The translations under genes were made by a program, and so were the position numbers. From Lathyrus oleraceus (taxonomy: Eukaryota > Streptophyta > Magnoliopsida > Fabales > Fabaceae), in the NCBI RefSeq assembly GCF_024323335.1, contig NC_066580.1, positions 137,593,648 through 137,657,647 on the forward strand: 64,000 nucleotides of DNA, read 5' to 3'. Shown piece after piece: positions 4,941 to 64,000 of the stretch (positions are counted from its first letter, which is position 1; every line of letters begins with the position of its first letter). The notes under the pieces are model-generated. The model worked only from the letters and a program-made list of their open reading frames with translations, was not told the DNA's origin and did no database searches.

Positions 4941-5072
4941 ACAAGTTGCATTCTACCCATTTAAAAATAATCAAGAGGAGCAATAAAACGGCCAAGAATC
5001 AATAAAACAAGTTGCATTCTACCCATTTAAAAATAATCAAGAGGAGCAATAATACGGCCAAGAATCAATAAA
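4941..5072. repeat. 66-bp tandem duplication
   Basis: A unit beginning acaagttgcattctacccat occurs at 4941 and again at 5007, differing by one base in the copies I compared (aataaaacgg against aataatacgg). Confidence 0.9.
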
Positions 5073-5460
5073 ACATCATGACTCACATTCAACCGCTCAA
5101 GATTAACCTCACACGACTGACTCCACAATGGCACTCGAGTACACTCAAGTGATATAGTGACGTTGCCAATCCCCTATCCTAAATCCTAGGGCATATAGAG
5201 AGTTCTCACAATAAGTATGGATTAATTCGAAGGCTCAACATCATAACCAAGTACAATTCATTTTTAATCTTGCAAGAGACCTCTTTAAACTAAGAAACTT
5301 GAGCATTAAATTGTTTACCTTGTAGGTACATTCCCCGCATTCGCATGTCAAAGAACTTGCTGCTGCTACTAGTGCAACCTCATCCGCTCATCATCAATTT
5401 CCTATTCCACACTAGAATAGGTTTGATTCATTCTACATTTTTTGATAAGCATGCCAAGTT

Positions 5461-5528
5461 TAACAATATTCTTCTATATAAAATAACTCACTCAATATTG
5501 AGTTATGTTATATAGAAAAATATTGTTA
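5461..5528. repeat. Inverted repeat, about 28-bp arms
   Basis: The left arm runs through aacaatatt, ctatata and aataactca. The right arm returns tgagttat, tatatag and aatattgtt, with about 8 bp between them and a few mismatches. It could form a strong hairpin. It is too short and isolated to call a transposon. Confidence 0.75.
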
Positions 5529-5645
5529 AGACCAAAGCAAACTGAGAAATGTGTTTATCAAAACATCTAAGAACAGAATTTATTCCCAACTTTTAACTAC
5601 TTGTAAACGAGAAGTTAGATCAGAAACTCACAAAACTAAGTGCTT

Positions 5646-6360
5646 ATAAGGGCCAGTAGCTAAAAAATTACAAAGAAGCCAATTACAATTCAGTATAGTT
5701 CATATTAGTACAAAACGTGGTAATAAAAATAAGTTAATATGACAGTATAATGTGAAACTCATATACACATCATCAGAAAGGATAATTTATCTCATCCACA
5801 ACCTAAGTTGTGTAGGAAGGTGTCCTAAGATTTATTCCAAACTCATCACATGATACATAAAATGCAAATACAAAGGGACAATATAATACTGTCAAAATAC
5901 CCTAAATAAACAGAGAAATATACATTATATAACAAAAGTATAGATTCAGAAGCATATAGATATATTTAGCATCACAAAATCAGATCAAGTGTTGGATTAT
6001 ATATTTTGCTTCATCCTTATCGACCACAGTTAACAAAACGTTTTCAAAGAAGCTGGATCTGTAAAAGTCAATTAAGATTTAAATATTATTGAGAAATTTA
6101 GTTCCCCGACGTCCAAATACAACATCGAAATTGTAGTAGTGGATAGCGAGGGGAACACAATTATAGGCTTCAATTAAACACTACAAACACATTTGAAAAG
6201 TGAATGCAACAATAAAATCCAGATCTGAAGCCACAAAGTTTCGATAATTAAAAATTGAAAACTTATAAAAACAAGAATCAAAGAGAAAATTGGGTGAAGA
6301 ACTAGTTAACTCAGCCCCTTAGATGTTCAATAAATCTGCGATCATTCCCGCAAATCATTA
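5646..6360. repeat. Duplicated non-coding segment, copy 1
   Basis: Matches 8186-8960 in the same orientation with many substitutions and indels. Anchors present in both are cagtagctaaa, tcatctcatccacaac (with small changes), ctaagatttattccaaactc, the block around ttcccgacgtccaaatacaac, and gatgttcaataaat near the end. The sequence is non-coding in both copies. It may be two old LTRs or two copies of a gene's untranslated region; I cannot tell which. Confidence 0.75.
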
Positions 6361-21341: not shown

Positions 21342-22045
21342 TGTAACACCCCGATAAAATATGATAATTATTTAATTTAAGTTTAATAGTATATTATGAT
21401 GATAATATGAATGAGAGGGTATTATTTTTCAAAATAAAAGATAAACCATTCATATATATTATTATTAGTATATTTATTAATTTAATTAAATAATTGGAAT
21501 ATTATTGGATTATTATTATTGGAATAATAAAGTTGGAATTGGAACGATTTTTGGAATCAGTAAAGAGTTCCATTTGGTAAAAAGGTTGTTTACACGTAAA
21601 AGCAGAGAACACGTAATAATTGGGAGAAAAGAGAAGAAACTGAGAAAGGGAGAAGAAGAGGCTAGGGCTCAAGAGGAGAATTCACGATTGTTGAAGGTCA
21701 AAGAATCAATTGCCGGATTAACTCAGGTAAGGGGGGTTTATCATCGTTTAATGGGTATTATGGGTTAACATGTAATGGGTAGTAATAAGCCATTGAATCG
21801 ACTCTAATCAGGATGATGAATGCTGCAAATTGTGAACTTATGGATGAATGAGATATGGGTTTATAATTGAAGAAAATTCGTAGTAATTATATGTAATAAG
21901 GTTAGAAATTGTGAAATTGAATGGGTATGATCTGTGTTAGATAATATGAACGAATGCTGTGTAAAAATTGGACTGTGGGAGGTTGGATTCGAGAAATCTC
22001 GTAGCAGAGAAAAACTCATAGCAGATCTGAAATTTTGGTTTCTGG

Positions 22046-22181
22046 TCATACGCGTATGACACTAGGCCATACGCGTATGAGATGGCCTGGAGGGGAGGAG
22101 ACTGGTGCTGATACGCGCCATACGCGTGTACTTACGCGTAGCCTGTGAGTGGTACGCGTATGGGGTGAGGCCATACGCGTA
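22046..22181. repeat. CATACGCGTATG palindromes in the B LTR, left part
   Basis: Repeated palindromic motif with core ACGCGT, for example GTCATACGCGTATGAC, then ggccatacgcgtatgag and ggtacgcgtatgg. The array continues on the other side of the CACTA insert and is complete at 60624-60920. Confidence 0.9.
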
Positions 22182-22199
22182 CACTACGCCAAATAAGGG

Positions 22200-22572
22200 A
22201 AAAGAGGGCGCTTATTTTGGCCTATAACAGCGCTTTTAAGCGCCCTCTAAAGTGGCGCTGGCATAGGTAAAGACAGCGCTTTGTTTTCCTGGAGAAAGCG
22301 CTGTCTAAAGTGGCCACATTATAGTGCGCTTTCAGAAAAAAGCGCCCTCTGGAGTGGTCCATAAAGGGACACCTTAGAGGGCGCTTTCTGGAAAAAGCGC
22401 CCTCTAAAGTTGTCAATGTAAAGTGTTTAGAGGGCGCTTTCAGGAAAAAGCGCCCTCTAAAGTTGTCAATGTAAAGTGTTTAGAGGGCGCTTTCAGGAAA
22501 AAGCGCCCTTTAAAGTTGTCAATGTAAAGTGTTTAGAGGGCGCTTTCAGGAAAAAGCGCCCTCTAAAGTGTT
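22200..22572. repeat. CACTA left subterminal repeats
   Basis: Many copies of agagggcgctttc and its complement gcgccctctaaag, usually paired as hairpins around a short aggaaaa or tggaaaa loop. From 22375 there are about four tandem units of roughly 53 bp containing gttgtcaatgtaaagtgttt. Subterminal repeats of this kind bind the TNPA-type transposon protein in other CACTA elements. Confidence 0.9.
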
Positions 22573-22951
22573 AGTTATTTTAAAAAAATTTGTTTGAAAA
22601 ACAGTGGATATTTAATTGGTAACCTGTTCGCATGCTGCAAAAGTGTAAAATTCATATTGATTTCATCCTTTAATCCAATGTTATACACCATTAATCCATT
22701 GATATATACAACATGAATCCATTTATATACAACATTAATCCTCCATATATACAACATTAATATATGATTCTTTGATCAACAATATACAACAACATATTCA
22801 TGATTTAGTAAAAGTACAACAACAATATACACTATTAGTCTCGAAAGATCCATAGCAACCAACACCCAGTGACCACTGTATCCAAAAGCTGTCTAGTAGT
22901 TCTAACCAATACTAAACAAAATAACGCCCATCCACCCATGATGAATAATAG
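22573..22951 (-). other. Sequence between Argonaute fragment and left subterminal repeats
   Basis: On the - strand the Argonaute frame continues past 22952 into unrelated sequence (LLLFIMGGWALF, then more) and stops at TAA 22835-22837. The rest (22573-22834) is AT-rich, with repeated acaacattaatcc-like motifs, and shows no gene. Confidence 0.55.
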
Positions 22952-23689
22952 CAAGTGTGCATAATAGGCAGGAGGAACTGCATACAAGATAACATTTTTG
23001 TTAAACTAAAGTTTTGTATAGCCTAAAACAAAAACAAGCAAAGGGAATCGAGTAACAAACCTATTGAGACAGATCGAGTACACCTCGCATAACTGAATGG
23101 AAAAAAATAGTATCAGAAGGCTTCTAAAATTAAATGAAAACAGTACAAGTTTAGAAAACATTAATTAAGATTAAAAAAGCAAATCATACCATTACGTGTA
23201 GCACAAGTTATTGGTCAAACTCTGTAGCTGGTCTGCAGTGAATTTATTTTCATCATACAGCACATGATAATGCGTTGGTCGACTAGTCCCCTGCAAAAAG
23301 AACACGTCCAAATGCAAATAACACAGAACTGTCAAAAGGCGATTGAGCAACAAATAGTAAACAATGGCATAAAGTTAAATGACATAGCTAATATTACCTG
23401 AATTCCTGCATGGCTGTTAAGGTAAAAATCAAATTCCCTAGGGTGACAAATGCTGGTGTCTACCACGGTTCCTTTGACAATTTAGAACAACAAAATCAGC
23501 AAAAAGTGATAAATTCAAATGATAATATATACCAGCTGCATTGAGAAATATATTGAAAAAACCTGGCATAATATTTCCACTTCTATCGGTCTCTTTGGGG
23601 TTGACAGGAAAGAGACGGGTGTGATGTCTCTTTTGGACCACTACAAAAGTAACTTTAGGTAGATACCCATCCTCTATTGAGACACAAGC
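22952..23689 (-). pseudogene. Captured Argonaute (AGO) PIWI-domain segment, five exons with introns
   Basis: Argonautes load small RNAs and use the PIWI domain to slice targets. On the - strand the exons are 23689-23563 ([20 protein letters not shown], then RHHTRLF, SGNIMPG), 23471-23398 ([20 protein letters not shown], then HAGIQ), 23290-23196 ([11 protein letters not shown], then [14 protein letters not shown]), 23092-23061 (YARCTRSVSI) and 22977-22952 (PPAYYAHL). Each junction has GT and AG in the correct phase. This is the PIWI C-terminal half, including the HYHVL segment with the catalytic histidine; the upstream catalytic acids are not included. The [10 protein letters not shown] wording suggests the AGO1/5/10 group, perhaps AGO5. 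A serine replaces the usual lysine in DTxICHP. The gene's start and the end after YYAHL are missing. I see no stop or frameshift in the exons. Presence of introns means capture was from DNA, not from mRNA. Confidence 0.93.
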
Positions 23690-23941
23690 CTGATGAAAAA
23701 AAATTAGTTGGTCTTCAGCACTCCAATGTACTTCAAATTTTACACCCTTGTCTCTTGCACGAATGATTGACTTCATAATAGCCATTTTACCTGTAATAAA
23801 GAAAACAATTAAAATCATATGACAAATGTAAAAACAATTAAAATCATAAAAGTCATTTTACCTGTAATAAAGAAAACAATTAAAATCATTTGACCTGTAC
23901 CTTTTTCACTAAGTTCTCTTTCTTTTCTTGGTTGGAATATG
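23690..23941 (-). pseudogene. Fragment of the second CACTA ORF, joined to the AGO segment
   Basis: On the - strand about 23930-23885 reads NIFQPRKERELSEKGTG. After a duplicated stretch (attttaattgttttctttat at about 23861-23880 and 23798-23817) the sequence is [20 protein letters not shown], then WSAEDQL. I recall similar N-termini in the non-transposase ORF of legume CACTA elements, but that is from memory. The open frame starting at 23818 runs straight through the last bases before the AGO exon (ttttcatcag) into AGO codons in frame, so a chimeric reading frame is open to 23563 and beyond. Confidence 0.45.
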
Positions 23942-26900
23942 TTATACATGTCTCTTAACAACACGGACGGTTGGATTGATCCAAATACCCTCATTATGAT
24001 CATTTCTAATATATGAATCATTTGATATAATATTCTCATCTTGATCATTTCTGGTAAACGATTCTATCTCAACATCAATATCACCTTGATCTCCAGTGTT
24101 TTCATCAATTACTTTGTTGGAAAAAAGAACTATAGACCATTTCGTACTTTTCGGATCATTGACATAGAACACTTGTCTAGCTTGAGAGGCTAGAATAAAA
24201 GACTCATCTTTGTATCCCACCCTATTAAGATCCACTTGCAAAAATCCTGACTTATCCATTCGAATGTCGTTATTATTTTCAACCCACTTGCAACCAAATA
24301 TAGGAATCTGAAACTTCTCATAATCAAACACCTAAATGCGCTCGATAACACCAAAATACGACAGATTTGCAAATTTGGGGTTTAAGTCCTTCACACTTGA
24401 TATGTGCATTGCTTCAGCTACCACGGTGACACCACTATTCTGCATAGTACTTTTATCATCTTGTTCTTTGGTATAAAATGTGTATCCATTAATCGCGTAT
24501 GCGCTATAAGAAAAAACATGGAAACTTGGACCATATGCTAAGCATCTCAACCTTTCTGTTATTGAAGCGGGATCTGAATAATACTTTGAATAAATATGAT
24601 CCTTAAACCAAGGTATAAAACATCGATTGTGCTCTCGTACTATCCAATTTTCATTTCTATTGGGATTTAAACCTCGGAGAACATCCTTGTGAATTTCAAC
24701 ATACGGCTCAACCTCATTCTCATTGTGCAGAACATACAAATGCACTTGATCCCGTTCGACCCTTGATACTGCCACGATTTTATTTCCAATTAGATTTTTT
24801 CCTTCTTTCTTTTCGACAAGCTGAGACTTGGGGAGTCCGATTGACTGAACATTAGACAAATATTCAGTACAAAACTCAATCGCTTCTTCAACAATGTATC
24901 TTTCAACTATACAACCTTCTGGTCGACTTCGGTTCTTCACGTACCCTTTTAATATTTTCATATAACGTTCAACAGGGTACATCCATCTCATATAAGCTGG
25001 TCCACACAATTGTGTCTCTTTCACAAGATGAACAACTAGATGTACCATTATGTCAAAAAATGATGGAGGAAAAAACATTTCAAGCTCACACAAAGTAGTA
25101 ACGATTTCTTTTTGCAACATTGGTAAGATCGCAGGATTGATCACCTTACTGCAAATTGACTTGAAGAAAGAACACAACTTAGTTATAGAGCTTCTTACTT
25201 TTTCTGGAAGAATAGAACGTATACCTATTGGGAGAAAATGTTCCATTATAACATGGCAATCATGGGTCTTTAAACTCTTTAACTTGAGGTCTTTCATAGA
25301 CACAAGTCTTCTAATATCTGAAGAGTACCCTTCTGGAACTTTAACTTCACTTAGAAACTTACACAATGTTTTTTTCTCCTTTCTAGATAGAGTATAAGCA
25401 GCAGGAGGTAGATATGTTCGTTTTCCTTTCTTCAAGGGTCCTAATTCAGTTCTTATTCCCATCGCTATCAAGTCCTTTCTTGCCTTAAGGCCATCCTTAG
25501 ATTTTCCTTGTATATTGAGTAACGTGCCAAGAACACTTTCAAATACATTTTTTTCAATATGCATAACATCAATAAAATGTCTCACATACAAGGACTTCCA
25601 ATACGGCAATTCAAAAAAAACTGACCTCTTCTTCCACCCACTTTTGACAAGTGTGTGGGCAAAAGGCTTGCCAAACTGAGTATCCAAATCTTTCACCTTT
25701 TCAAAAATTTGATCACCCGTCAATATAGGTGGAGCTCTGCCTTGTTCTGTCTCTCCATTGAACGCCTTTCTCCATCCACGGTAGTGATGATTTGAATTTA
25801 AGAATCTCCGATGACCGAGAAAGACATTCTTCTGACCAAACTCCAAGCGCTTCCAATCTGTTTTATCTTCACAAATAGGACACGCACATTGACCTTTTAT
25901 GCTATACCCTGATAGATTTCCGTATGCTGGAAAATCATTAATTGTGCCAAACAACATCGCCCTCAAGTTGAAACTTTCTTTCCTATATCCATCATAAACC
26001 TCCACACCGGTCTCCCACAAAATCTTTAAATCTTCGATTAAGGGCTTCAAGTACACGTCTATGTCATTCCCTGGTTGTTTAGGTCCAGAAATCAACATAG
26101 ACAACATCATGTACTTACGCTTCATACATAGCCATGGAGGTAGGTTATAAATCATAATAATCACAGGCCATGTACTGTGTGAGATATTTTGGATACCGTG
26201 TGGGTTCATTCCATCAGTAGATAATGCCAAGCGAAGGTTTCTTGATTCTTCTCCAAATTCAGGATAATCATTATCAATTTTCAACCACTGTGGTGAATCT
26301 GCCGGATGTCGATACTTTCCATCTATAATTCTTTCATCTGCATGCCAGGTCAAGTGTCTTGAATCGGTTTCACTACGAAACATGCGTCTAAATCACGGAA
26401 TAACAGGAAAATACCACAAGACTTTTGCTGGAGACAACTTGTTCTTATATCGCGAGACACCGCATTTAGGACACTCATTTAACGATGCATACTCATTTCG
26501 AAACAAAACGCAATCGTTTGGACATGCATGTATCTTATCATAGCTCATGCCAATAGAGCACAACATCTTTTTGGTCTCATATGTTCGATTGGGAAGAACA
26601 TTATCCTCAGGAAGCATATCTTTCAAAAGGGCTAATAACTCTGTGAAACTTTTATCCGACCACCCATTGCCCGCCTTTAAGTTGTACAACTTTAATACCG
26701 CATACAATCTTGTGAATTTAGTGCAACCATCATACAAAGGTTTCTCTGCATCACTTACCAACCTCTCAAACATTTCGGGACAATCCTTAAGATCTCCTTC
26801 AAGTGCTTCTGCAATCTCTTCAACTCGATCATAATCGTATGTATCTGCGCCACTATAGTTTGAGGCATAGGTCGTACTATCCCCGGTTCAACATTATTGT

Positions 26901-27132
26901 TACTTTTCTCACCATGCAAATTCCAACATGTATAACTTCGATCAATTCCATGCCTCATTAGATGCGATGTCAACTGAACTGCGTCAACCCGTTTCCCATA
27001 ACAACAACCCAAGCAAGGACATATCATTCTACTGGGGTCTTCGGCGTGCGCAACGGCAAACTTAACGAATTCTGATACCCCATTCTCGTACTCTCTCGAC
27101 AATCGATTGGAAGACATCCATGTATTATCCAT
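23942..27132 (-). pseudogene. TNP2 transposase of the CACTA element (broken)
   Basis: The catalytic protein of CACTA transposons. It starts at ATG 27132 (MDNTWMSSNRLSREYENGV, then CPCLGCCYGKR, the transposase-associated zinc-binding domain). A 1-nt shift near 26860 changes frame to AEALEGDLKDCPEMFERLV. The frame then continues: NECPKCGVSRYK, the Tnp2 core (LALSTDGMNPHGIQ, WPVIIMIYNLPPWLCMK, CACPICEDKT), DUF4218 (FPPSFFDIMVHLVVHLVKE, MRWMYPVERYMK) and, after 24332, DUF4216 (IPIFGCKWVENN, FVLASQ-like FILASQARQVFYV), ending at 23942. Two single-codon stops interrupt one otherwise continuous frame: TGA 26393-26395 (where relatives usually have arginine) and TAG 24332-24334 (usually tryptophan). 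Most of the protein is otherwise well kept, so loss is fairly recent. Confidence 0.92.
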
Positions 27133-27560
27133 TACTAATTAGAATAAACAAAAAACAATTTCAGAAGAGTTCAAACACATTCGGACCTAGGTTTCTAATG
27201 ATACTGGTGTTGACACAAAATCATATGTTCATAGGTCGTATAACCCATTGCATCCGCTATCATGGTCACTAAAAACCAACCGTCAATTTCCTATTGCATC
27301 CGCTATCATGGTTGAAACAAACGTAGAAGGAGGAAACGCGCAATAATAAGGTAAAACAGAAATTGGGCAAAGCTAAAACAAAGCAATAACATAAAACAGA
27401 AATTGGGAAAAGCGTGTACCTTTGATTGGTAGAAGGAGGAAACGCGCATGTAGATCTAACAGAGGTGGAAGGAAAACACCTCAGAACCCTAACGTGAAAA
27501 AGAACGCTAATAACAGATAGTGAAATAACAAAACGCGCAGTATGTTATAATTTTAATGTT
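27133..27560 (-). other. 5' leader region of the CACTA transposase
   Basis: Non-coding sequence between the transposase ATG and the right subterminal repeats. It contains a short direct repeat ccattgcatccgctatcatgg / ctattgcatccgctatcatgg at about 27245 and 27291, and gaaggaggaaacgcgca at about 27328 and 27431. Confidence 0.6.
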
Positions 27561-27574
27561 TACTAAAGGGGACA

Positions 27575-28165
27575 TTAGAGGGCGCTTGTGGAAAAAAAAC
27601 GCCCTCTAAAGGGGGCCTAAGAGGGCGCTTATGAAAGCGCTCTCTAAGGCTTTCCAGAAGCGCTTTATAAGCTGGAAATGCACGTGGACTTATAACAGCG
27701 CTTTATTAAAAGCGCCCTCTAAGGGTAACCTTAGAGGGCGCTTTCTAAAAAGCGCCATGTATTGTTGTCCCTCTATCTCCTCCTTATTTTTTCGTTTCAC
27801 CTTAGAGGGCGCTTGTGGAAACAAAGCGCCTTCTAAAGGGGGCCTAAGAGGGCGCTTATGAAAGCACTCTCTAAGGCTTTCCAAAAGCGCTTTATAAGCT
27901 GGAAATGCACATGGACTTATAACAGCGCTTTATTAAAAGCGCCCTCTAAGGGTAACCTTTGAGGGCGCTTTCTAAAAAGCGCCATGTATTGTTGTCCCTC
28001 TATCTCCTCCTTATTTTTTCGCTTCACCTTAGAGGGCGCTTTGTTACAAAAGCGCCCTCTAAAGTGCGCTGTCTATTGCTCCTTATTTTTCGCTTCACTT
28101 TAGAGGGCGCTTTTGTAATAAAGCGCCCTCTAAGGTGCGCTGTCTATTCTAGTTTTTGGCGTAGT
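27575..28165. repeat. CACTA right subterminal repeats, with a 227-bp tandem duplication
   Basis: Same agagggcgc / gcgccctct hairpin motifs as the left end. A block of about 227 bp starting gagggcgcttgtggaaa (27578) repeats at 27805, and a third, shorter variant begins near 28029. Confidence 0.9.
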
Positions 28166-28202
28166 GGTATGAATGAAGAAGATGATGTTCTAACATAGTT
28201 TT

Positions 28203-28335
28203 GTCTCTGTTGGTACGCGTATGGGAGAAGTGGTACGCGTATCATACGCGTATGAGACAGGCCATACGCGTATGGGCTTGGCTAGGAAATGTGCCATACG
28301 CGTATGGGCATGAGGCATACGTGTATGGGCAGAAG
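28203..28335. repeat. CATACGCGTATG palindromes in the B LTR, right part
   Basis: Continuation of the palindrome array after the CACTA insert: five ACGCGT cores plus a decayed acgtgt version. Confidence 0.9.
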
Positions 28336-29395
28336 TTTGATTTTTCTGAGCTGTTGTTGTGCAGTTTTGGTCGTTTCAGCTGAATGATGTAATTTAGCTG
28401 ATGTATGATATAGTAGGGATCATTTCCCGTTGTTTTGAGCAGTATAGGTATTAGTAGAGTGTGCTAATACTGTGATTTATTATTTGGCATGACATGATAT
28501 GATTATGTGATAAATATGCTGATGGTGTATGATGGTATGCATAATGCTGTGAATATATCTATTATGTATGCAATTGTGGATGGACTGTTTATGGCTTAGA
28601 GTGTGAGCATATGTCCATTGTGGATTGTTGTTGATGTTTGCATGCTAGGTGATTAGCGTGCATAGCATAGCCTTTATGGTGGTAGCTAATTCTCATGGTA
28701 AGGAATTAGTGAGTGAGTCACTAGGTCTCAAATGAGTGGGACTAGTGAGCTTGGTAGCCGTATCTGGGTTTGATCGGTGAGGTTGAACTATGTGTTCACG
28801 AATAGTCGGTACCGCATGCATGAAGTCTCATTTCATAATGTATGTATGGCGTATAATATGAATGGATGTATTCCAATATTATACGTGTGTTTTGTGGTTG
28901 TGTTGAGTATGATTATGAGTTGATGTTGCCGTTGCTGAATGCGTGATATGATTAGGGTGATGAATGTGTTAATTTACTTAGCATTACATGATATTTTATA
29001 ATGCTTATTATATCGATTGAGGAACTCACCCTTACAACTATGTTTCAGGTAACGAGCAGTGATTGAGTAGAAGCTAGTGCTTGGAGTCTAGTGTAGTTCC
29101 TTAGTGGGTCATGCTCTGGTATATGTAACATCGGGACGGGATGTTTTACTTTGTTTTCATTTTTGGTTGTTGAACAATTTTACATGTAATGTGTTACATG
29201 GTTTGCATGTTGTTAGATTTCTATCCGCTGCGAATTGTGCAATGTTTTATTTTGATTAATAAATGAGCATGACAAGTTATTTTGGTGAATGGTGTGAAGT
29301 GTCAAGTGTGACACCCTGAAATTGCATATCTACTCTGATTCATGTTTTGTTGTTTTAATTAATTATTGGGGTATTTTAGATGGGTGTTACATTAG

Positions 29396-29407
29396 TGGTA
29401 TCAGAGC
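29396..29407 (+). other. Primer binding site of element B, unit 1
   Basis: TGGTATCAGAGC, the classic site for initiator tRNA-Met, four bases after the LTR end. Confidence 0.95.
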
Positions 29408-29517
29408 ATAGTCGGTCGAGTCGAGTCGTAATTATTCTGTTTCCCTGTATGTGATAGGTGTTGTGTAACCCTATCAGTACTTATTGTTTTAGCTTGTTGG
29501 ATTAACTCAGAATAGAG

Positions 29518-31922
29518 ATGGCTGGAAGAGGTAGAGACGATGCTGCGATTGCTGAGGCTCTGGGTATGCTAGCTGGAGTACTTGGAGGGAATCCGAATGT
29601 TGTGGGATTGGGAGCTGCTCGTCAACTGAGTGAGTTCCAGAAGAACAATCCTCCAATGTTCAAGGGAGCATACGATCCAGATGGTGCTCAGAAGTGGTTG
29701 AAGGAGATCGAGAGGATCTTCCGAGTGACTGAGTGTGCCGATAACCAGAAGGTCAGGTTCGGTACGCATATGCTGTCAGAGGAAGCAGATGATTGGTGGG
29801 TTGCTGCCCGCACTGAGTTGGAAGCTGCGGGGGTGCTGAGATCACTTGGGCGGTGTTCAGAGAGAGATTCCTGAGGAAGTACTTTCCAGAGGATGTCAGA
29901 GGAAAGAAAGAGATAGAGTTCTTAGAATTGAAGCAGGGCAACCGGTCTGTTACTGAGTATGCTGCTAAGTTCACAGAGCTGTCGAAGTATTACACTCCCT
30001 ATGATGAGGCTACTGGGGAATTTTCAAAATGTGTGAAGTTTGAGAACGGGTTACGTCCCGAGATCAAGCAGGCTATTGGGTATCAGCGGATTAGAGTGTT
30101 TTCTGACTTGGTTGACTGTTGCAGGATTTTTGAACAGGATACCAAGGCCAGAGCGGAGAGCTATCAGCAGAGGGTTGATAGGAAAGGTAAGAATCAGGAT
30201 GATCGTGGGAAACCGTATGCAGCTGGCAAAGGTTTCCAGAGACAGAGTGGGATGAAGAGACCTAGTGGGGGAGACTCCAGTGCCCCTGCTAAGTGTTACA
30301 GATGTGGTCAGACTGGACATCGTATCCATGAGTGTACCAGTACTGAGAAGAAGTGTTTCAAGTGTGGCAAAGGTGGTCACTTGGCTGCAGAGTGCCGGTT
30401 GAAGACTATGACTTGTTTCAACTGTGGAGAGGTGGGTCATATCAGTCCACAGTGTCCTAAGCCGAAGAAAGAGAACCAGTCGGGAGGCAAGGTCTTTGCT
30501 TTAACGGGTTCTGAGACTTCTGCAGATGATCGTTTGATCCGAGGTACGTGTTATATTAATGGCTTTCCTCTTGTAGCTATTATTGACACAAGTGCGACTC
30601 ATTCCTTTATATCTTTGGATTGTGCTGTGAAACTTAAATTAGAGATATCTGAGATGCATGGGAGTATGGTGATTGATACTCCTGCGAAGGATTCAGTGAC
30701 TACTACTTCAGTTTGTTTAAATTGTCCTTTGAGTATTTTTGGTAGAGACTTTGGGATGGACCTCGTGTGTCTTCCACTAGTGCAGATTGATGTTATCCTG
30801 GGTATGAACTGGTTGGTGTTTAACCGAGTTTATATCAACTGTTTTGATAAGACTGTGATCTTTCTTGAGATTGAGGAAGGAAAGAGTTTGTTTCTATCAG
30901 CAAGGCAGGTGAATGAGGCAGTAGCAGATGGGGCAGAGTTGTTTATGCTGTTAGCGACTTTGGAGGCTAAAGATAAACTGGTGATTTGCGATCTAGCCGT
31001 GGTGTGTGATTTTCCTGATGTGTTTCCTGAAGAAGTGAATGAATTACCGCCAGAGCATGAAGTTGAGTTCTCGATTGATTTGGTACCTGGTACTAGGCCG
31101 ATATCGATGGCTCCGTACCGTATGTCTGCTGTTGAGTTAACTGAATTGAAGAGTCAGCTGGAAGATCTGTTGGATAAGAAATTTATTCGTCCGAGTGTGT
31201 CACCGTGGGGCGCACCAGTGTTATTAGTTAAGAAGAAAGAAGGTACTATGAGGTTGTGTGTGGACTACAGGCAACTGAATAAAGTGACGATCAAGAATCG
31301 GTATCCTTTGCCGAGGATTGATGATTTGATGGATCAGTTGGTTGGTGCGAGTGTGTTCAGCAAAATAGATTTGAGATCGGGGTATCATCAGATACGTGTG
31401 AAAACTGAGGATATTCAAAAGACTGCTTTCAGAACAAGGTATGGATATTATGAGTATTCTGTAATGCCTTTTGGTGTGACTAATGCGCCTGGGGTATTTA
31501 TGGAGTATATGAATAGGATTTTCCATCCGTACCTAGACAAGTTTGTTATGGTGTTTATGGACGATATTTTGGTGTATTCGAAATCTGAAGAAGAGCATGC
31601 TGAACATTTGAGAGTGGTTTTAGGAGTTCTACGAGAAAAGAAGTTATTTGCTAAACTGTCCAAGTGTGAATTTTGGTTAGAAGAGGTTAGTTTTCTTGGT
31701 CATGTGGTTTCAAGAGGTGGTATTGTTGTTGATCCTTCTAAGATAGAAGCGGTATCTAAGTGGGAAGCTCCGAAGTCAGTTTCTGAGATAAGGAGTTTTC
31801 TTGGACTTACAGGTTATTATAGGAAATTCATTGAGGGATTTTCTAAGTTGGCGTTACCGTTGACGATGTTGACTAGAAAGGGGCAAGCGTTTGTTTGGGA
31901 CTCAAAATGTGAAGAAGGTTTC
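29518..31922 (+). pseudogene. Element B gag-pol, part 1 (gag, protease, reverse transcriptase, start of RNase H)
   Basis: Gag begins at ATG 29518 (MAGRGRDDAAIAEALGMLAG; later FKGAYDPDGAQKWLKEIERI). A 1-nt frameshift at about 29834-29842 moves the frame to [20 protein letters not shown]. Three CCHC knuckles follow (30295-30456: [42 protein letters not shown]). The protease has [12 protein letters not shown] with DTS at 30585-30593 where DTG is expected. The reverse transcriptase has [30 protein letters not shown] and FMDD at 31554-31565, and the RNase H connection starts at WDSKCEEGF. There element C interrupts at 31922. Removing C and one gtttc copy continues the frame exactly at 57913. Frameshift and protease change are both present in the second unit too. 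Confidence 0.95.
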
Positions 31923-34900
31923 TGTCGCATCACGCGAAAAACCGGCGGGAAAAGAAAGAACAACAGAGCCGCCACCGTGCGTTATTTATCCCAAAAGAGG
32001 GAAAGGAAACGCTCAGAGTAAACCTGGGAAAAGACATGGTCTCGCGACCAAAGAGAATGGGTTCGGGAGTCGGTTATGCGAAGGGAAGGTATTAGCACCC
32101 CTACGCATCCGTAGTACTCTACGGGATCCACGCACACTAGAAAGGAAAATTGGTTGCTAAACACTGCTCAAATATTCACACACACTGGCTGAAAGAAACG
32201 AAAGAGACTGACTGAAACTGAACTCGGCAGGATGTCGCATCCTGGGCCTACTTAGTCTATCAGGCATAGACATCAGAGTCAAAGTAGTTCGGACTGGGGA
32301 AACGACACATGCTCGCTAGGATATCGCATCCTATGCATACGTATCTTCTCGGACGAGAGAAGAATCAGAGCATTCGTAGCTCGGCTGACACACACACAAA
32401 CAAAACAAAACAAAGGCAAACGTGGAGCCCGACTGCCAATCGCTGGACTTATGTCAGCATCCGAACCTAAGCACACACACTGGAACCCGAATGCCACTCG
32501 ATGGACCTACATCAGCTTCCAAGCACACAACAACACAACAAGTTAATAGGGAGTCGGGGACTCGAGCCTATAACTGTCAAGCACACACTCAAACAGACAG
32601 ACAACAAATTGCTAAGGAGTCAGGCACTCGAGCCTAGCAAATGTCAAACGACACACACAAAAAGGAAAAGGGCGCCCGGAGAGATCAGCTCAATCTCCTG
32701 CCTACATACTTCATCTGGTATGAAGATCAGGGCGATGTAGTTCCCCTACGCAGGGATAAAGGACTAGCCTAACCAGATAACAGAGGGAGACACAACTCTA
32801 GGGAGACTACGACTCGAGCCTAGATGTTGTCATGCAAAATCATCCCTAAGTTAAGGTTTCTAGCTAAATGGCACGCGGGCCGACCTATCCTAAGTATGGC
32901 TCACACTGGAAGCAAGCCACACACACTTAACTTGCACAGGAAGCAAGCCAAGCAAAACCTACTTGCACAGGAAGCAAGTCTAAACTAATCCTAACTTGCA
33001 CAGGAAGCAAGTCAAACTATCCTAACTTGCACAGGAAGCAAGTCAAACTATCCTAACTTGCACAGGAAGCAAGTCAAACAATCCTACCAGTGCAGATAGC
33101 ACACGCTATACACAAACAAGTGGCTCAAACAAGGGTTAGGTTTTAGTCAAGGGGTCATATCAACCTCAACAAACAAACCTCTGGAATGGGGTGAATGTGC
33201 TCTTAACCTTGCCATTGAGGGGCTAAGGTGAAGCAGATGAAAGGATGAAGTGAGGATGAGACCTCACAGCTCTTATCCCTGGTCTGGGAGAGCTCAAGAC
33301 AAGAATGTGTGGGTTCAGAAAGTGGGAACCCTTCTACACATTTGAAACTGACTCAACTGTGCAATTGCACAAGATCTTGGGTTTGTATCTGCAATGCATC
33401 AACACAGTGGTGTGAGCAAAGCAGATGACACACTGAATAGTGGGGGATAGATTGCATATCCCTACCTTCCACCAATTGCCTCTTCTCTTAGGAGGACTTT
33501 GACTCTATGCAGGGACAAAAGTAAACATCCACAAACATTGCCTCTTAAGGAGGACTTCAGACAGTTGCCTGGCCAAGTAACAGACCAGGTCTTCCAGACT
33601 ACATGAAGTAAAGGAGGCATACCTCAATGCAAATTGCTTATACAAGCAAAGCAAAGCAAAAAGTTCACAAGGAACTAAGCAACTAAAGCACCTGAAACAG
33701 TCAAGCAGATGTTAGTATGCAACTTCAAACAAAACAAACAGAAACAGAAACCAACAGTCAATTGGAGGCACATGGATGTGCAAGGCACAAGGCTTATGGC
33801 ATGTGAGCCAAGCCACCTACAAAACAAGGAGGTTAGGCAATGATACTTGGGTAAGCTCAATCAAAAGAATTGGTCTTAATGGCCATTTGATGGTCAACCT
33901 GAAATCACAAGCTCAAAGGTGAGTAACAGGACCACTAGGGCAAGCCTAGGGTCAAAAGTGAATGAGAAAGTCAAAACAGCAAGGGTTAGGTATCCAAAAT
34001 CATGTTCAAACAATTAGGAAACAAAACCAATTGGGTTCACAGTCATATCAATCACTATCATCATTTCATGAACCATTTAGGTCAAAACATGGCAAACAGG
34101 AGCTCATAGAAGTCAACAGCAAGACTTGCATAAAAAACAATCTAAACATTTTCCAAAAATCACCAAATAAATCATGATCAAACCTAACACATAGCATGGT
34201 AAGCATGTCAAATTTCAACCCATTTGGGCAAGTGGAAGGCAGTCAATGAAAATCAGAAAGACAAAGTCAATTTGAACATGCTCAATGAAGTCAACCAAAC
34301 ATGCATCAACTTAGAAAAATCATAAGTCTAGAATGGTGTATGATAAATGAATGGGACTAAAACCATGGCAAATATTAGGATGTCTAGTTATCTCATGCAA
34401 GATTTCATGTCCATCCAATAAAGTATGAGAATTTCACAAATGAAATGGGAACATGTGTCACACAAAGTCAACCTTTGACTAGACAGGGAGGAAAAATCTC
34501 AAACAAATGGAAAATAGTTCAATTAAATCCAAGAAAATTCACATGTGAACTAGGCATACAAGAGTAGGTTCATGCAAAATTTGAGGTCATTTGGATGTCA
34601 AGAAGCATGGCAATGAAAATCATGAAGTTGGTCATCAATGGTGTGACACAAGTTGTCACACCCTAATTCAAAAAATCATATCTCACAAACCACAAATGAT
34701 AAATTCACAAACTTTATACCAAAATCACCATGAAGGTGTCTAGTTTAAGCACAAAAAATTTGAGAGCCATTGGATACATTCTCATCATTTCACAATTGAT
34801 TTGGCAAAGTGTACAAAATTTGGTCACATGTCACAAACCCTAAGGCCATTTAAAAACCATCCATCCAAAAATTCTGGAAAAATAATGATAAAAAAGTAGA

Positions 34901-37900
34901 GATCATGATGAACACAACACAAAAAATCCCACTCAATTTGGACCAAAAATGAGCAAGTTGTGAATTTTGGAAGATTGATGAAATTATTGAAGAAATTAAT
35001 TGAATTTATATGGAGAAAATGGCATTTTGGTAAATAACCCAGTCACTTATCAAAACGACCGTGTTTTGGTCCAGAAAATGAAATGTTTTGATTGGCTGGA
35101 GGGAGAAAAGTCATGCACACGAAAATGGACCAAAATCTGGGCAGATTTGGGATTAGGGTTCTTATCAAAAAATCGTGATTTCTCAATTCTTCCCCAAAGT
35201 GTCAATTAAGCATACCATTGTAAACATCAAACACCATACAACAACAATCCAAACCCTAATTTCATCAATTTGAACTATACAACAAGAAATCACAAGAAAC
35301 ATTTTCAAACATCAAACTTTATCTCATCATTTCTTCATGGACAGGCAATCATTTTCAAAAAGGAAAGCAACATGATACTCAGCATTAAAAAAACTATTCA
35401 AAACATGTCTCAATTTTAGAAATGGTGGAAGTTGAAAACTTACCAATTTGGAGGGCAGTTTGTGTTCTTGGTGTTGTTTTGTGATGCCTTGCCAAAACAG
35501 ATGAGCCTTCAACTTGCCAATGATGGAAAATGATGATGGTATGGCTCAAGGCATTTTGGAAGTACTTAGATCATGGACTGTCAAAGTTGAAAAATGCAAA
35601 TGAGGTTTTGGTGCTGCTGGCAGTTGGTTTGTGCTTGACAGGTTCTTTGGAGTTTGTCCAAACAAAATTCAAATGCAAATAGCCAAAGGTGATTTGGGAG
35701 GGTGTATGGTTTGAGCAATGGCCAAAGGTTGAATGCAGGGTTTGGGCAACTTTGATTGGTTATGTTGGTTTTGTTGGATGCTGCAGGGTTTAGGTCATGC
35801 TAGCAAGGTTTAGGAATGATGAGAAAATGGAGATGAACCAAACTGTTATGGTTGGCAAAGCAGTGTTTAGAGTTAGGCAGGATTTTTGGCCAAAGCAAGG
35901 CAAGGTTGGTCTGTTTTAGTATTGTGGACAAGGTGAATCAAGATTTTTCTGTTGCATAGTTGTGTTCTTTTGTTTGATGACAGCAAGATGCAAGTGGCAA
36001 GGTGGTTGTATTGGCAAGTGAGGTTTTGAAATGTTACTGGTTTGGACAGTAGAAGTAATGTGCAAAGCAAGGGTTTTTTTTTGGTTGGAAAATGGATGAT
36101 GGTCCTTTGTGGTCTGCTCCTTTGACAGTGAATGCAAGTGAGGGCAAGGTTGGCCTGTAGGTTTTTTCCTTGAGGGGTGGCTAAGGGTGTGTGTAGTTGG
36201 TCTTGGTGGAATTTGCTGTCTTTGCCAAATGAGAGGATCAGTCTTTTTCAGTGCAGCAGCCAGGTAAGGGCATGTTTTGGCTATTTGGTGGTTTTTGCTG
36301 TCTGCAACTAGTGTTTTGGTTTTAACAGAAAAAAAGGTGAGGGAACAAGGTATCAATCAGAACAAGGTTTGTGTCCTTTGAAATTTCCTGGACAGCATGC
36401 CAAGAAAATCAATCCTTTGCCTCAGTGAAGTGGTTGGTCAGCTGTTATGTTGGTGGCTGCAATTTAGTTCAGAACGAGGGAAGGATAGTGAAAAACAAAG
36501 GCCAGTGTTTTTATTCTTTGAAGTTTGGACTGGTTTGGTAATTGTAAGTGAGATCATGTTTGAGAAAATGAATGCAGTTCTGTTGGCAATCTCATGGCTT
36601 GGCTTTGACAGGAAAATGATAAGGAAGAATGCTATCAAACAAAGCAGGGTTTTTGTCTCTTTAAGTTCTTTTGGACAGAATTTGAAAATGCCAAAAGTGA
36701 GGTAAGAGCATGATTTCTTTCTGCAGTGTGTTGGATTGATGCTGCTCTTCCTGGTTTATTTTGATGGCAGGTGAGTTTTTAGAATGCTGCAGGCAATTGA
36801 CTTTTTTGTTAGCTCAGCTTAGTCTTGCTATCTTTGTTGACAGAAAAATCAGAATGCCAAAACCAAGATGATATTTTTTGCAGCCCCCCCCCATCCTGTG
36901 GTATTGTGTAGCCTAAAAGATGACAGAACGAAACTGCACCCTTGCTGCTGTGTTGCTGTTGGCCAGTTCAAATCATGGCCTGGAGGTACAAGTATGGTAT
37001 GTGACAGCCTTTGTATATGATGCAGTATATGGTGCAGTATGTGTGCAAGTTATGTGATAATACAAGTGTGGTATGGAGCAATTGCCAAGGCTTTTTCTCT
37101 TCTGCTGCAGTATGGTGCTCCTATTTCTAACAGGATCTTCCCACTTTTGTGGAGGGAAATGCCAAGTGCCCAAATGAATGAATTTTCTCTTTGGCTTTTT
37201 GCTGCAACATGTTACTCATGACAGGAAAAAAAAAGGGAAAGCCATGCTGTTACTGTCTGGTTTTGACAGAAAAACATGGGCAACAATCTGCAATGTGGTG
37301 GTACAAGTATGGTTGCAAGAGGTATGGTTCATGAATTGGACATGTCCTTTTTGCCAAAACTCAAGTGAGCAAGCATGGCTATGTGTACTTGTTGGTTGTT
37401 TGGCTGCACAATGAGGCTCACCATGACAGAAAAAATGGTCAAGAATGCTGCATAATGCTGCTGGTACAAAGCATGGTTATGGAAAGCAAGGACAAGCATG
37501 GTGCAATGGTACTTTCCTTGTAATTCAAGCAACCAAGCAAGATTCACATGTTCTGCATAATTTGGCTTTGCAAACACACTTAAAATGATATTTATGAGCT
37601 GTTCCAATTGGCCAAATGTTGAAAAAATGCTTGAGTCAAAAAGTCAACTCTTGGTCAAACTTTGAATTTAAATGAAAAAGGTCCAAAAATGCCTTTTTGA
37701 TTGGTAAGGTTTTAGGTCATGAAATTTATATTTTTGGAAAGAGGATGAAAAATGTGGCTTGCAGGAAAAAACCCCACCAAAATTGGCCAAACGGTTTGGG
37801 AGATATGGCCCTTTGAAGTTCGAGATTTTCTGAAATCGATTCGATCATAACTTGCCAACCACACATGGGAATTGAGAGTTCTAGGACTTTTTGGAAATGG

Positions 37901-38643
37901 GAGAACAAGATCTTCAACTTTCATGTTGGGCAAAAATTCATTTGAGGCTTGTATCATGATGTAAGTTTGAGGATCAAAACTTTCCATTTATGGCAAGTTT
38001 CAGTTACAGGCCCAGTTTCCGTTTTGGGAAATTTCTGATCTGGCTTCAAATTCCTCCATGATGGTGTTTGGCATGATATATGATGACTATTTGGACATGA
38101 ATGAACTCTCACAAACCAATTCCAATCATCCAATCACTGATTAAATGGACAGTTGACCAACAGTTGACTTTTAGGGTTTCTGCTTGATTATGCATTGACT
38201 GATGACTTCCAAACCCTAATTCCTTGAGAATTTGACTTCAAATGATGTCCCAAGTTGTATGAACTCTTGATTATTAACCATGGTGCCCAAATTCCACAAG
38301 AATGACCACCAACCATTGCCTTGACTGACAGTTGACTTTTCTAGGGTTTTTGACTGTCTGTGTATGAACTACTGACCTCTGAGCCTTCAACCCTTGACTT
38401 GAACACTTCAAATGGATCCCCAAGTCATGTGAACTTGTTGGACAAACCCCAAAGCCTTGATTCAATGAGAAAATCCTTTGCTTGCTTGGTTGACTGATCA
38501 GGAGATTAGTTTGACCTAATTCTTGATTGCTTGCACTTGAGGCAACTGAGGGATAATGCAAATGCTATGCAATGGATCATGACATGCTATGACCTAATAT
38601 GAAAATGTATGCATAATGATAGGTGCAAATTTGAGGTGCTACA
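31923..38643 (-). repeat. 3' LTR of element C (left copy)
   Basis: On the + strand runs TGTCGCATCACGCG to GAGGTGCTACA; 6721 bp. No gene; many short chance frames occur identically in both LTR copies. Contains the hairpin minisatellite at 32925-33090. Confidence 0.97.
32925..33090. repeat. LTR minisatellite, acttgcacaggaagcaagt, 5-6 copies (left LTR)
   Basis: Unit of about 30 bp. Each unit contains ACTTGC and GCAAGT arms around acaggaa, so each can form a 6-bp stem. The last units are nearly identical (tcaaactatccta linkers). The same array is at 52189-52353 in the right LTR. Confidence 0.93.
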
Positions 38644-38655
38644 GCTGCCCCTATT
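38644..38655 (-). other. Polypurine tract of element C
   Basis: On the - strand aataggggcagc ends where the 3' LTR starts. Its position and purine content fit the plus-strand primer site. Confidence 0.7.
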
Positions 38656-51183: not shown

Positions 51184-51185
51184 GC

Positions 51186-59919: not shown

Positions 59920-61981
59920 TGTAACACCCCGATAAAATATGATAATTATTTAATTTAAGTTTAATAGTATATTATGATGATAATATGAATGAGAGGGTAT
60001 TATTTTTCAAAATAAAAGATAAACCATTCATATATATTATTATTAGTATATTTATTAATTTAATTAAATAATTGGAATATTATTGGATTATTATTATTGG
60101 AATAATAAAGTTGGAATTGGAACGATTTTTGGAATCAGTAAAGAGTCCCATTTGGTAAAAAGGTTGTTTACACGTAAAAGCAGAGAACACGTAATAATTG
60201 GGAGAAAAGAGAAGAAACTAAGAAAGAGAGAAGAAGAGGCTAGGGCTCAAGAGGAGAATTCACGGTTGTTGAAGGTCAAAGAATCAATTGCCGGATTAAC
60301 TCAGGTAAGGGGGGTTTATCATCGTTTAATGGGTATTATGGGTTAACATGTAATGGGTAGTAATAAGCCATTGAATCGACTCTAATCAGGATGATGAATG
60401 CTGCAAATTGTGAACTTATGGATGAATGAGATATGGGTTTATAATTGAAGAAAATTCGTAGTAATTAGATGTAATAAGGTTAGAAATTGTGAAATTGAAT
60501 GGGTATGATCTGTGTTAGATAATATGAACGAATGCTGTGTAAAAATTGGACCGTGGGAGGTTGGATTCGAGAAATCTCGTAGCAGAGAAAAACCCATAGC
60601 AGATCTGAAATTTTGGTTTCTGGTCATACGCGTATGACACTAGGCCATACGCGTATGAGATGGCCTGGAGGGGAGGAGACTGGTGCTGATACGCGCCATA
60701 CGCGCGTACTTACGCGTAGCCTGTGAGTGGTACGCGTATGAGGTGAGGCCATACGCGTATGAATGAAGAAGATGATGTTCTAACATAGTTTTGTCTCTGT
60801 TGGTACGCGTATGGGAGAAGTGGTACGCGTATCATACGCGTATGAGACAGGCCATACGCGTATGGGCTTGGCTAGGAAATGTGCCATACGCGTATGGGCA
60901 TGAGGCATACGTGTATGGGCAAAAGTTTGATTTTTCTGAGCTGTTGTTGTGCAGTTTTGGTCGTTTCAGCTGAATGATGTAATTTAGCTGATGTATGATA
61001 TAGTAGGGATCATTTCCCGTTGTTTTGAGCAGTATAGGTATTAGTAGAGTGTGCTAATACTGTGATTTATTATTTGGCATGACATGATATGATTATGTGA
61101 TAAATATGCTGATGGTGTATGATGGTATGCATAATGCTGTGAATATATCTATTATGTATGCAATTGTGGATGGATTGTTTATGGCTTAGAGTGTGAGCAT
61201 ATGTCCATTGTGGATTGTTGTTGATGTTTGCATGCTAGGTGATTAGTGTGCATAGCATAGCCTTTATGGTGGTAGCTAATTCCCATGGTGAGGAATTAGT
61301 GAGTGAGTCACTAGGTCTCAAATGAGTGGGACTAGTGAGCTTGGTAGCCGTATCTGGGTTTGATCGGTGAGGTTGAACTATGTGTTCACGAATAGTCGGT
61401 ACCGCATGCATGAAGTCTCATTTCATAATGTATGTATGGCGTATAATATGAATGGATGTATTCCAATATTATACGTGTGTTTTGTGGTTGTGTTGAGTAT
61501 GATTATGAGTTGATGTTGCCGTTGCTGAATGCGTGATATGATTAGGGTGATGAATGTGTTAATTTACTTAGCATTACATGATATTTTATAATGCTTATTA
61601 TATCGATTGAGGAACTCACCCTTACAACTATGTTTCAGGTAACGAGCAGTGATTGAGTAGAAGCTAGTGCTTGGAGTCTAGTGTAGTTCCTTAGTGGGTC
61701 ATGCTCTGGTATATGTAACATCGGGACGGGATGTTTTACTTTGTTTTCATTTTTGGTTGTTGAACAATTTTACATGTAATGTGTTACATGGTTTGCATGT
61801 TGTTAGATTTCTATCCGCTGCGAATTGTGCAATGTTTTATTTTGATTAATAAATGAGCATGACAAGTTATTTTGGTGAATGGTGTGAAGTGTCAAGTGTG
61901 ACACCCTGAAATTGCATATCTACTCTGATTCATGTTTTGTTGTTTTAATTAATTATTGGGGTATTTTAGATGGGTGTTACA
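59920..61981 (+). repeat. Middle LTR of the element B array (2062 bp, uninterrupted)
   Basis: Same ends as the 5' LTR. It serves as 3' LTR of unit 1 and 5' LTR of unit 2. It retains the empty site of the CACTA element at about 60750. About 14 substitutions separate its first 1371 bp from the 5' LTR; I found none in the last 690 bp. Confidence 0.95.
60624..60920. repeat. CATACGCGTATG palindrome array, complete copy
   Basis: Ten ACGCGT cores and two altered ones (acgcgcgt, acgtgt) within 300 bp, most inside a 10-16-bp palindrome such as GTCATACGCGTATGAC. Confidence 0.93.
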
Positions 61982-61985
61982 TTAG

Positions 61986-61997
61986 TGGTATCAGAGC
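61986..61997 (+). other. Primer binding site of element B, unit 2
   Basis: TGGTATCAGAGC four bases after the LTR, as in unit 1. Confidence 0.95.
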
Positions 61998-62107
61998 ATA
62001 GTCGGTCGAGTCGAGTCGTAATTATTCTGTTTCCCTGTATGTGATAGGTGTTGTGTAACCCTATCAGTACTTATTGTTTTAGCTTGTTGGATTAACTCAG
62101 AATAGAG

Positions 62108-64000
62108 ATGGCTGGAAGAGGTAGAGACGATGCTGCGATTGCTGAGGCTCTGGGTATGCTAGCTGGAGTACTTGGAGGGAATCCGAATGTTGTGGGATTG
62201 GGAGCTGCTCGTCAACTGAGTGAGTTCCAGAAGAACAATCCTCCAATGTTCAAGGGAGCATACGATCCAGATGGTGCTCAGAAGTGGTTGAAGGAGATCG
62301 AGAGGATCTTCCGAGTGACTGAGTGTGCCGATAACCAGAAGGTCAGGTTCGGTACGCATATGCTGTCAGAGGAAGCAGATGATTGGTGGGTTGCTGCCCG
62401 TACTGAGTTGGAAGCTGCGGGGGTGCTGAGATCACTTGGGCGGTGTTCAGAGAGAGATTCCTGAGGAAGTACTTTCCAGAGGATGTCAGAGGAAAGAAAG
62501 AGATAGAGTTCTTAGAATTGAAGCAGGGCAACCGGTTTGTTACTGAGTATGCTGCTAAGTTCACAGAGCTGTCGAAGTATTACACTCCCTATGATGAGGC
62601 TACTGGGGAATTTTCAAAATGTGTGAAGTTTGAGAACGGGTTACGTCCCGAGATCAAGCAGGCTATTGGGTATCAGCGGATTAGAGTGTTTTCTGACTTG
62701 GTTGACTGTTGCAGGATTTTTGAACAGGATACCAAGGCCAGAGCGGAGAGCTATCAGCAGAGGGTTGATAGGAAAGGTAAGAATCAGGATGATCGTGGGA
62801 AACCGTATGCAGCTGGCAAAGGTTTCCAGAGACAGAGTGGGATGAAGAGACCTAGTGGGGGAGACTCCAGTGCCCCTGCTAAGTGTTACAGATGTGGTCA
62901 GACTGGACATCGTATCCATGAGTGTACCAGTACTGAGAAGAAGTGTTTCAAGTGTGGCAAAGGTGGTCACTTGGCTGCAGAGTGCCGGTTGAAGACTATG
63001 ACTTGTTTCAACTGTGGAGAGGTGGGTCATATCAGTCCACAGTGTCCTAAGCCGAAGAAAGAGAACCAGTCGGGAGGCAAGGTCTTTGCTTTAACGGGTT
63101 CTGAGACTTCTGCAGATGATCGTTTGATCCGAGGTACGTGTTATATTAATGGCTTTCCTCTTGTAGCTATTATTGACACAAGTGCGACTCATTCCTTTAT
63201 ATCTTTGGATTGTGCTGTGAAACTTAAATTAGAGATATCTGAGATGCATGGGAGTATGGTGATTGATACTCCTGCGAAGGATTCAGTGACTACTACTTCA
63301 GTTTGTTTAAATTGTCCTTTGAGTATTTTTGGTAGAGACTTTGGGATGGACCTCGTGTGTCTTCCACTAGTGCAGATTGATGTTATCCTGGGTATGAACT
63401 GGTTGGTGTTTAACCGAGTTTATATCAACTGTTTTGATAAGACTGTGATCTTTCTTGAGATTGAGGAAGGAAAGAGTTTGTTTCTATCAGCAAGGCAGGT
63501 GAATGAGGCAGTAGCAGATGGGGCAGAGTTGTTTATGCTGTTAGCGACTTTGGAGGCTAAAGATAAACTGGTGATTTGCGATCTAGCCGTGGTGTGTGAT
63601 TTTCCTGATGTGTTTCCTGAAGAAGTGAATGAATTACCGCCAGAGCATGAAGTTGAGTTCTCGATTGATTTGGTACCTGGTACTAGGCCGATATCGATGG
63701 CTCCGTACCGTATGTCTGCTGTTGAGTTAACTGAATTGAAGAGTCAGCTGGAAGATCTGTTGGATAAGAAATTTATTCGTCCGAGTGTGTCACCGTGGGG
63801 CGCACCAGTGTTATTAGTTAAGAAGAAAGAAGGTACTATGAGGTTGTGTGTGGACTACAGGCAACTGAATAAAGTGACGATCAAGAATCGGTATCCTTTG
63901 CCGAGGATTGATGATTTGATGGATCAGTTGGTTGGTGCGAGTGTGTTCAGCAAAATAGATTTGAGATCGGGGTATCATCAGATACGTGTGAAAACTGAGG
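62108..64000 (+). pseudogene. Element B gag-pol, unit 2 (runs off the window)
   Basis: Equivalent to 29518-31410 with an offset of 32590. It has the same gag start, the same 1-nt frameshift (about 62424-62432), the same three knuckles (about 62885-63046) and the same protease DTS (63175-63183), and ends inside the reverse transcriptase ([13 protein letters not shown]). I found only two substitutions relative to unit 1: 62401 (T, against C at 29811) and 62537 (T, against C at 29947). The position equivalent to the element C insertion would be about 64508, outside the window. Confidence 0.95.

Follow-up and report, generated by a model that had tools for sequence, protein, structure and literature searches.

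The CACTA element and its insertion site

The window, which is the whole stretch of 64,000 nucleotides analysed here (C2:137593648-137657647), comes from the 3.8-Gb assembly of pea (Lathyrus oleraceus, that is, Pisum sativum). It contains a CACTA transposon that carries DNA of the Argonaute gene AGO5 and that is inserted into a long terminal repeat (LTR) of a Ty3-type retroelement (Table 1). Both ends of the transposon start with CACTACGCCAAA, 12 identical bases that are followed by a mismatch, and GTA is duplicated at the insertion site. The partner LTR, together with the start of the internal part of the retroelement, provides an empty site. Aligned to this site, the joined flanks of the transposon show 14 mismatches in 2271 bp without a gap; a single GTA is found at the join rather than the two that surround the transposon. 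A preliminary description of this DNA had proposed a transposon with real ends and a target duplication, and the terminal bases, the GTA and the empty site bear this out. Subterminal arrays of AAGCGCCCTCTAAAG-like units are present at both ends. With its CACTA inverted ends, 3-bp duplication, Transposase_21 domain and subterminal repeats, the element is a member of the CACTA (En/Spm) superfamily. Many copies of a GCGCCCTCTAAAG unit, in both directions, occupy positions 22230-22570 and 27572-28137 of the window and could form long hairpins.

Table 1. Features of the CACTA element and its surroundings, in positions of the window
Feature	Position	Strand	Basis or remark
CACTA transposon, 5985 bp	22182..28166	coding strand (-)	terminal bases, GTA duplication, gap-free empty site
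GTA target duplication copies	22179-22181 and 28167-28169
Host LTR of Ty3-type retroelement, the CACTA target	21342..29390	(+)	right end estimated from primer-binding site at 29396
Partner LTR and start of internal part, without CACTA element (empty site)	59920..62190	(+)
TnpD-type transposase gene, broken	23942..27138	(-)	Transpos_assoc, Transposase_21, DUF4218, DUF4216 (Pfam)
TnpA first-exon remnant (28 protein letters)	23702..23785	(-)	alignment to TnpA exon of L027
AGO5 DNA, main block: intron end, five exons, four introns	22949..23706	(-)	97.2% to pea AGO5 gene
AGO5 fragment exon 1	23563..23689	(-)
AGO5 fragment exon 2	23398..23471	(-)
AGO5 fragment exon 3	23196..23290	(-)
AGO5 fragment exon 4	23061..23092	(-)
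AGO5 fragment exon 5, shortened by internal deletion	22952..22977	(-)
AGO5 3'UTR piece	22876..22943	(-)	95.7% to gene positions 5996-6064 of reversed L041
Predicted five-exon frame, 188 aa	22835..23785	(-)	opens with the TnpA start, runs through the AGO5 exons and has a tail translated from AGO5 3'UTR and transposon DNA

The LTR portion of this alignment, about 2061 bp long, contains the 14 mismatches. With 1.3e-8 and 6.5e-9 substitutions per site and year, this would put an upper limit of about 0.26-0.52 million years on the age of the retroelement, and hence on that of the jump of the CACTA element into it, provided that both LTRs belong to one insertion. The Ty3-type array has been rearranged, because the internal part comes again after the second LTR. 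The LTR end and internal start at 28167-31410 are duplicated at 60757-64000 with 99.8% identity, and this tandem arrangement perhaps arose by unequal recombination. A long retroelement, which we take to be Ogre-like, is nested inside the Ty3-type element. Its coding blocks are surrounded by 6.7-kb direct repeats (31922-38644 and 51185-57908) that are 99.97% identical and are probably the LTRs of a very recent insertion.

The transposase gene is of the TnpD type, with a Transposase_21 (tnp2/TnpD) match of E = 9.7e-93. It is interrupted by in-frame stops at 24332 and 26393, where open frames abut, and by a frame change near 26755-26887 that is possibly an intron; one of the two stops is W in the pea gene model P0109. 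Of the second gene, TnpA, a remnant of the first exon is left. At the splice acceptor before this exon, a 58-base unit is duplicated in tandem (window 23766-23894, 90% identity, spacing 71). A Pfam search of the linker between the transposase and the AGO5 piece was uninformative.

The AGO5 fragment and its donor

The AGO5 fragment lies downstream of the transposase gene and in the same sense. GT-AG is found at all of its junctions and its 118 codons contain no stop, and the five phased PIWI exons of the preliminary description are exact to the base. The fragment matches Pfam Piwi at profile positions 177-297 of 302 with E = 3.9e-49, by which a chance resemblance to Argonaute was rejected. The AGO5 DNA runs past the limits first proposed and includes a separate piece of 3'UTR (Table 1). 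The last exon of the window copy reads into the AGO5 3'UTR because only gene positions 4934-5683, which correspond to the main block, and 5996-6064 were retained, as numbered on the reversed L041, the fetched stretch with the donor gene.

The donor is the pea AGO5 gene (protein P0005) at C7:312311780-312317060. Over its 118 residues, the fragment is identical to pea AGO5 at 117, to Lathyrus sativus at 114 and to Vicia faba at 111. AGO5 proteins are its closest legume matches, which agrees with the earlier assignment of the exons to Argonaute PIWI and to no other family. AGO1 and AGO10 were rejected as donors by protein comparisons, and pairwise alignments place the fragment nearest to AGO5 at the protein, intron and UTR level. 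The introns and the 3'UTR are about 97-98% alike between element and gene; therefore, genomic DNA was captured, and a retro-copied Argonaute was rejected. The search for a donor and the comparison of introns that had been proposed lead to the same gene, and the claim that a CACTA element captured part of a host Argonaute gene, introns included, holds. The alternative of a complete AGO gene at the locus of the window does not, given that the complete gene is on C7. The finding of host gene DNA within an element, with an intact donor elsewhere, is that expected of Pack-type gene capture.

The longest copies of the AGO5 piece (L012, L018, L024, L026 and L027) each give one alignment to reversed gene positions 4788-6064, at 96.7-97.2% identity with 11-12 gap letters, and contain the end of the intron before the exon that begins ACVSIE, the five exons, the stop and the 3'UTR. 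The majority sequence of the transposon copies differs from the AGO5 gene at 5/498 exon sites, 7/376 intron sites, 3/135 sites of the upstream intron and 3/124 sites of the 3'UTR, with 5 gaps. Codon 91 of the fragment, for instance, distinguishes the two, as it is AGT in most copies but TGT in the gene. At the rates used above, the non-exon distance of 2.1% between majority copy and gene converts to about 0.8-1.6 million years, and the 0.45% by which copies differ on average from their majority to about 0.35-0.7 million years.

Copies across the pea genome

Many other CACTA copies with the same insert were found, as the preliminary description had suggested might be the case. The assembly as a whole contains 264 matches, with at most three mismatches, to a 33-base word from AGO5 exon 3, which is also present in the AGO5 gene itself; CACTA membership was examined in the sample of AGO5-bearing stretches described below, and a reversed-word control gives 0. 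A 32-base word from the end of the CACTA family occurs 4196 times, with 0 in the reversed control, such that about 94% of family ends are without the AGO5 exon-3 word. Two genome searches together place at least 97 distinct sites in hit classes assigned to the AGO5-bearing family, and in the one that located the gene at least 20 places match the AGO5 last exon. Of 20 stretches fetched from the hits of the other search, 19 carry the AGO5 piece alongside further DNA of the CACTA family. The remaining stretch, L025, is from a hit class that is not counted, and the counted classes give 19/19.

Several copies have exact end pairs and target duplications of their own, namely L009 (TTA), L013 (ACT), L017 (ATT), L020 (GTA) and L021 (TAA). 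With the window and the L034+L042 element described below, these are the only ones in which exact end pairs were seen. The transposase region is retained in the AGO5 copies L013, L014, L016, L020 and L028, and all or most of it is missing from short copies such as L017 (3159 bp) and L021 (2887 bp).

L025 (C6:130880086) contains another repeated Argonaute-like piece at 3812-4281, with 61-67% identity to AGO5 residues 687-843. This piece is read without the AGO5 introns, has a stop and a frame change, and lies less than 2 kb from a diverged CACTA transposase (67%). Equal-score matches to its class are found at C6:152349785, C5:6379147 and C2:395526551, and the class may represent a further Argonaute piece carried by a different element.

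A second AGO5 stretch

By alignment to the donor, the CACTA family is also seen to carry a separate 5' stretch of AGO5 with other breakpoints. The element reconstructed from L034 and L042 (C1:140896536 onward) is 3961 bp long with an ATT duplication, and contains the AGO5 5' half, which spans 640-2569 on the reversed gene and roughly residues 34-452, introns included, at 97.3% identity. Related stretches in L033 (C1:376194812; 640-2475) and L040 (C7:151671411; 1025-2569) each lie beside the left end of the family. In L043 (C3:295391600-295398600), a segment from the middle of AGO5 (3903-4944 of the reversed gene) is present twice in tandem order, at 1242-1958 and 3167-4210, with a scrap of the AGO5 3' piece alongside; no CACTA ends were found around these stretches within 7 kb.

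Reading frames and constraint

The predicted 188-aa product of the window copy differs at 2/188 residues from the pea gene model P0137, which is named 'argonaute 5' in the pea records and has six members. At the rate of change of the transposase, the probability of zero changes in 118 codons is 0.11, and the open frame of the window copy by itself says little. Other pea records contain similar arrangements. P0109 is a 590-aa model with DUF4218, DUF4216 and Piwi, and P0203 (LOC127085189 isoform X1) carries the TnpA-AGO5 join; in both models, a TnpA exon ending in SEIQ is spliced to ACVSIE. P0256, a 'protein argonaute 5' of 125 aa, consists of the end of AGO5 only, and probably comes from a transposon copy because codon 149 has the transposon-type residue.

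The start of TnpA is joined to AGO5 in frame in six distinct types of join, among them the SEIQ-ACVSIE splice, the window type and those of L015, L034 and L040. The chance of six in-frame joins is about 0.14%, calculated after the pattern had been noticed and for frames followed only into the first AGO5 exon. Among the 21 copies with the 3' piece, eight are without an open frame from the TnpA start: it is lost in L009 and L014, where the window-type join differs by a single base, is interrupted by stops in L012 and L013, and has no TnpA start in L017, L018, L021 and L023. One-base deletions occur within the AGO5 exons of L024 and L026.

Compared to their majority, 20 copies have changes at 30/7903 exon sites, 34/6954 intron sites, 14/1595 sites of the upstream intron and 1/1070 sites of the 3'UTR. 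The exon changes comprise 17 replacement, 13 silent and 0 stop changes, where neutrality would predict 70/27/3%. For the excess of silent changes, p = 0.07, which rises to 0.51 when a recurrent change at codon 78 is counted once. These counts suggest that the captured AGO5 exons drift nearly neutrally. In the gene models, changes number 0/260 in AGO5 parts and 15/536 in transposon parts (p = 0.004, with rows that are not independent), and the window comparisons alone give 0/217 and 9/448 (p = 0.035, with rows that share sequences). Together, the in-frame joins and the unchanged AGO5 parts of the gene models hint that this DNA may be more than a passenger.

The fragment aligns to residues 690-808 of human AGO2. 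Of D597, E637, D669 and H807, which we take to be the slicer residues of that protein, it covers H807 only, such that the PIWI tetrad is incomplete. The complete Argonaute domain set (N, PAZ, MID and PIWI) is absent from the fragment, and P0005 has all four. An AlphaFold2 model of P0137, made with 45 sequences, has a mean pLDDT of 54.9. Judged from sequence and model, a functional PIWI protein is unlikely to be made from the fragment. The preliminary description had raised two effects, small RNAs against AGO mRNA and a competing PIWI fragment; the second idea is weakened because most of the catalytic centre is missing, the piece models poorly alone and its drift is near-neutral.

Origin and possible effects of the captured DNA

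We favour, at a probability of about 0.75, an account in which AGO5 DNA was captured and amplified, is now mostly a passenger, and would have its likeliest effect through small RNAs. Capture, donor, amplification, mobility after capture and the second stretch are each established by comparisons of DNA. In this account, the family copied a contiguous stretch of about 1.28 kb of host AGO5, from the end of an intron through the last five exons and the stop to the 3'UTR, and placed it in the region of TnpA. The AGO5-bearing form then multiplied to roughly 260 copies. The window copy, internally deleted and with a broken transposase, most likely needed other members of the family to mobilise it in trans. 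Sense transcripts of the transposon may be spliced at the AGO5 splice sites, the plant may make small RNAs that pair with AGO5, and these small RNAs may lower or methylate the AGO5 gene. For any effect on AGO5, RNA is the likelier route than protein.

Other origins for this DNA can be considered. A degraded AGO5 gene could sit at the window locus with the CACTA element merely nested beside it, and the exons and introns do follow gene order. However, the AGO5 DNA is inside an element that has an empty site, and it is found again at unrelated sites, within further elements that have duplications of their own; this reading was rejected as extremely improbable. The 5' and 3' pieces could stem from a single capture of most of AGO5 that was split later by internal deletions, given that both occupy the TnpA region of one family and share 97% identity with one gene. 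This is a credible but doubtful course. Two captures are favoured because the two pieces meet DNA of the TnpA region at different points: the 5' piece joins after TnpA codon 28, whereas elements with the 3' piece keep TnpA exon far beyond it, and none of the fetched elements has both pieces.

Selection could also have acted on the captured DNA. The TnpA-AGO5 fusion may be a protein that serves the transposon, for example by acting as a partner that interferes with AGO5, as might be suggested by the in-frame joins, the presence of such fusions in gene models and the lack of changes in their AGO5 parts. This is unlikely, given that 8 of the 21 copies with the 3' piece have no open frame, in two cases through one base at the join, that deletions interrupt AGO5 exons, that variation is similar in exons and introns and that the fragment models poorly alone. 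Alternatively, selection on the transposon could maintain AGO5-matching small RNAs because they lower AGO5 and so act as a counter-defence. The high copy number, the sense orientation with the transposon genes and the two AGO5 stretches within one family are consistent with this suggestion, but most family ends are without the exon-3 word, and AGO5 is therefore not required for spread; the AGO5 gene is also without a stop in the protein model P0005. Such a counter-defence is improbable. We give similarly little credence to a broader version, in which AGO5 would have been taken repeatedly and kept in the TnpA frame, and an RNA or fusion product would weaken AGO5-dependent silencing as an anti-silencing weapon.

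With its multiplied DNA of a silencing gene, this transposon makes the proposed conflict of gene capture and silencing directly testable, with hundreds of copies of an exon block and one complete donor. Lowered AGO5 is reported to reduce nodulation in bean and soybean (PMC5748670), and a crop trait could be touched if pea AGO5 were affected. In any event, the label 'argonaute 5' that pea records give to pieces such as P0137 would make Argonautes seem more numerous than they are and would misdirect work on their expression.

Comparison with known systems

Pea AGO5 (P0005) is the whole donor gene, whereas the captured piece described in the window is the end of PIWI only. A literature search of titles and the starts of abstracts, with most subscription papers outside its coverage, found no Argonaute fragment in a CACTA element, and a word search of PMC8903248 gave no match to Argonaute or AGO.

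A close parallel is Tgm-Express1, a soybean CACTA element with captured exons that are spliced into chimeric transcripts (PMC1947982). Like Tgm-Express1, the pea family is a legume CACTA family with host gene fragments that include introns, and splicing in pea is predicted by gene models. In that report, Tgm-Express1 is one described element with pieces of five unrelated genes and no Argonaute. In contrast, the pea family has taken one silencing gene in two stretches, and has roughly 260 copies, some of them with a transposase gene. The pea elements also resemble Pack-TYPE and Pack-CACTA elements, a kind of DNA transposon by which host coding sequence is copied and carried to new places. In PMC8903248 and PMC13317346, those elements are described as non-autonomous, whereas some of the pea AGO5 copies keep transposase genes.
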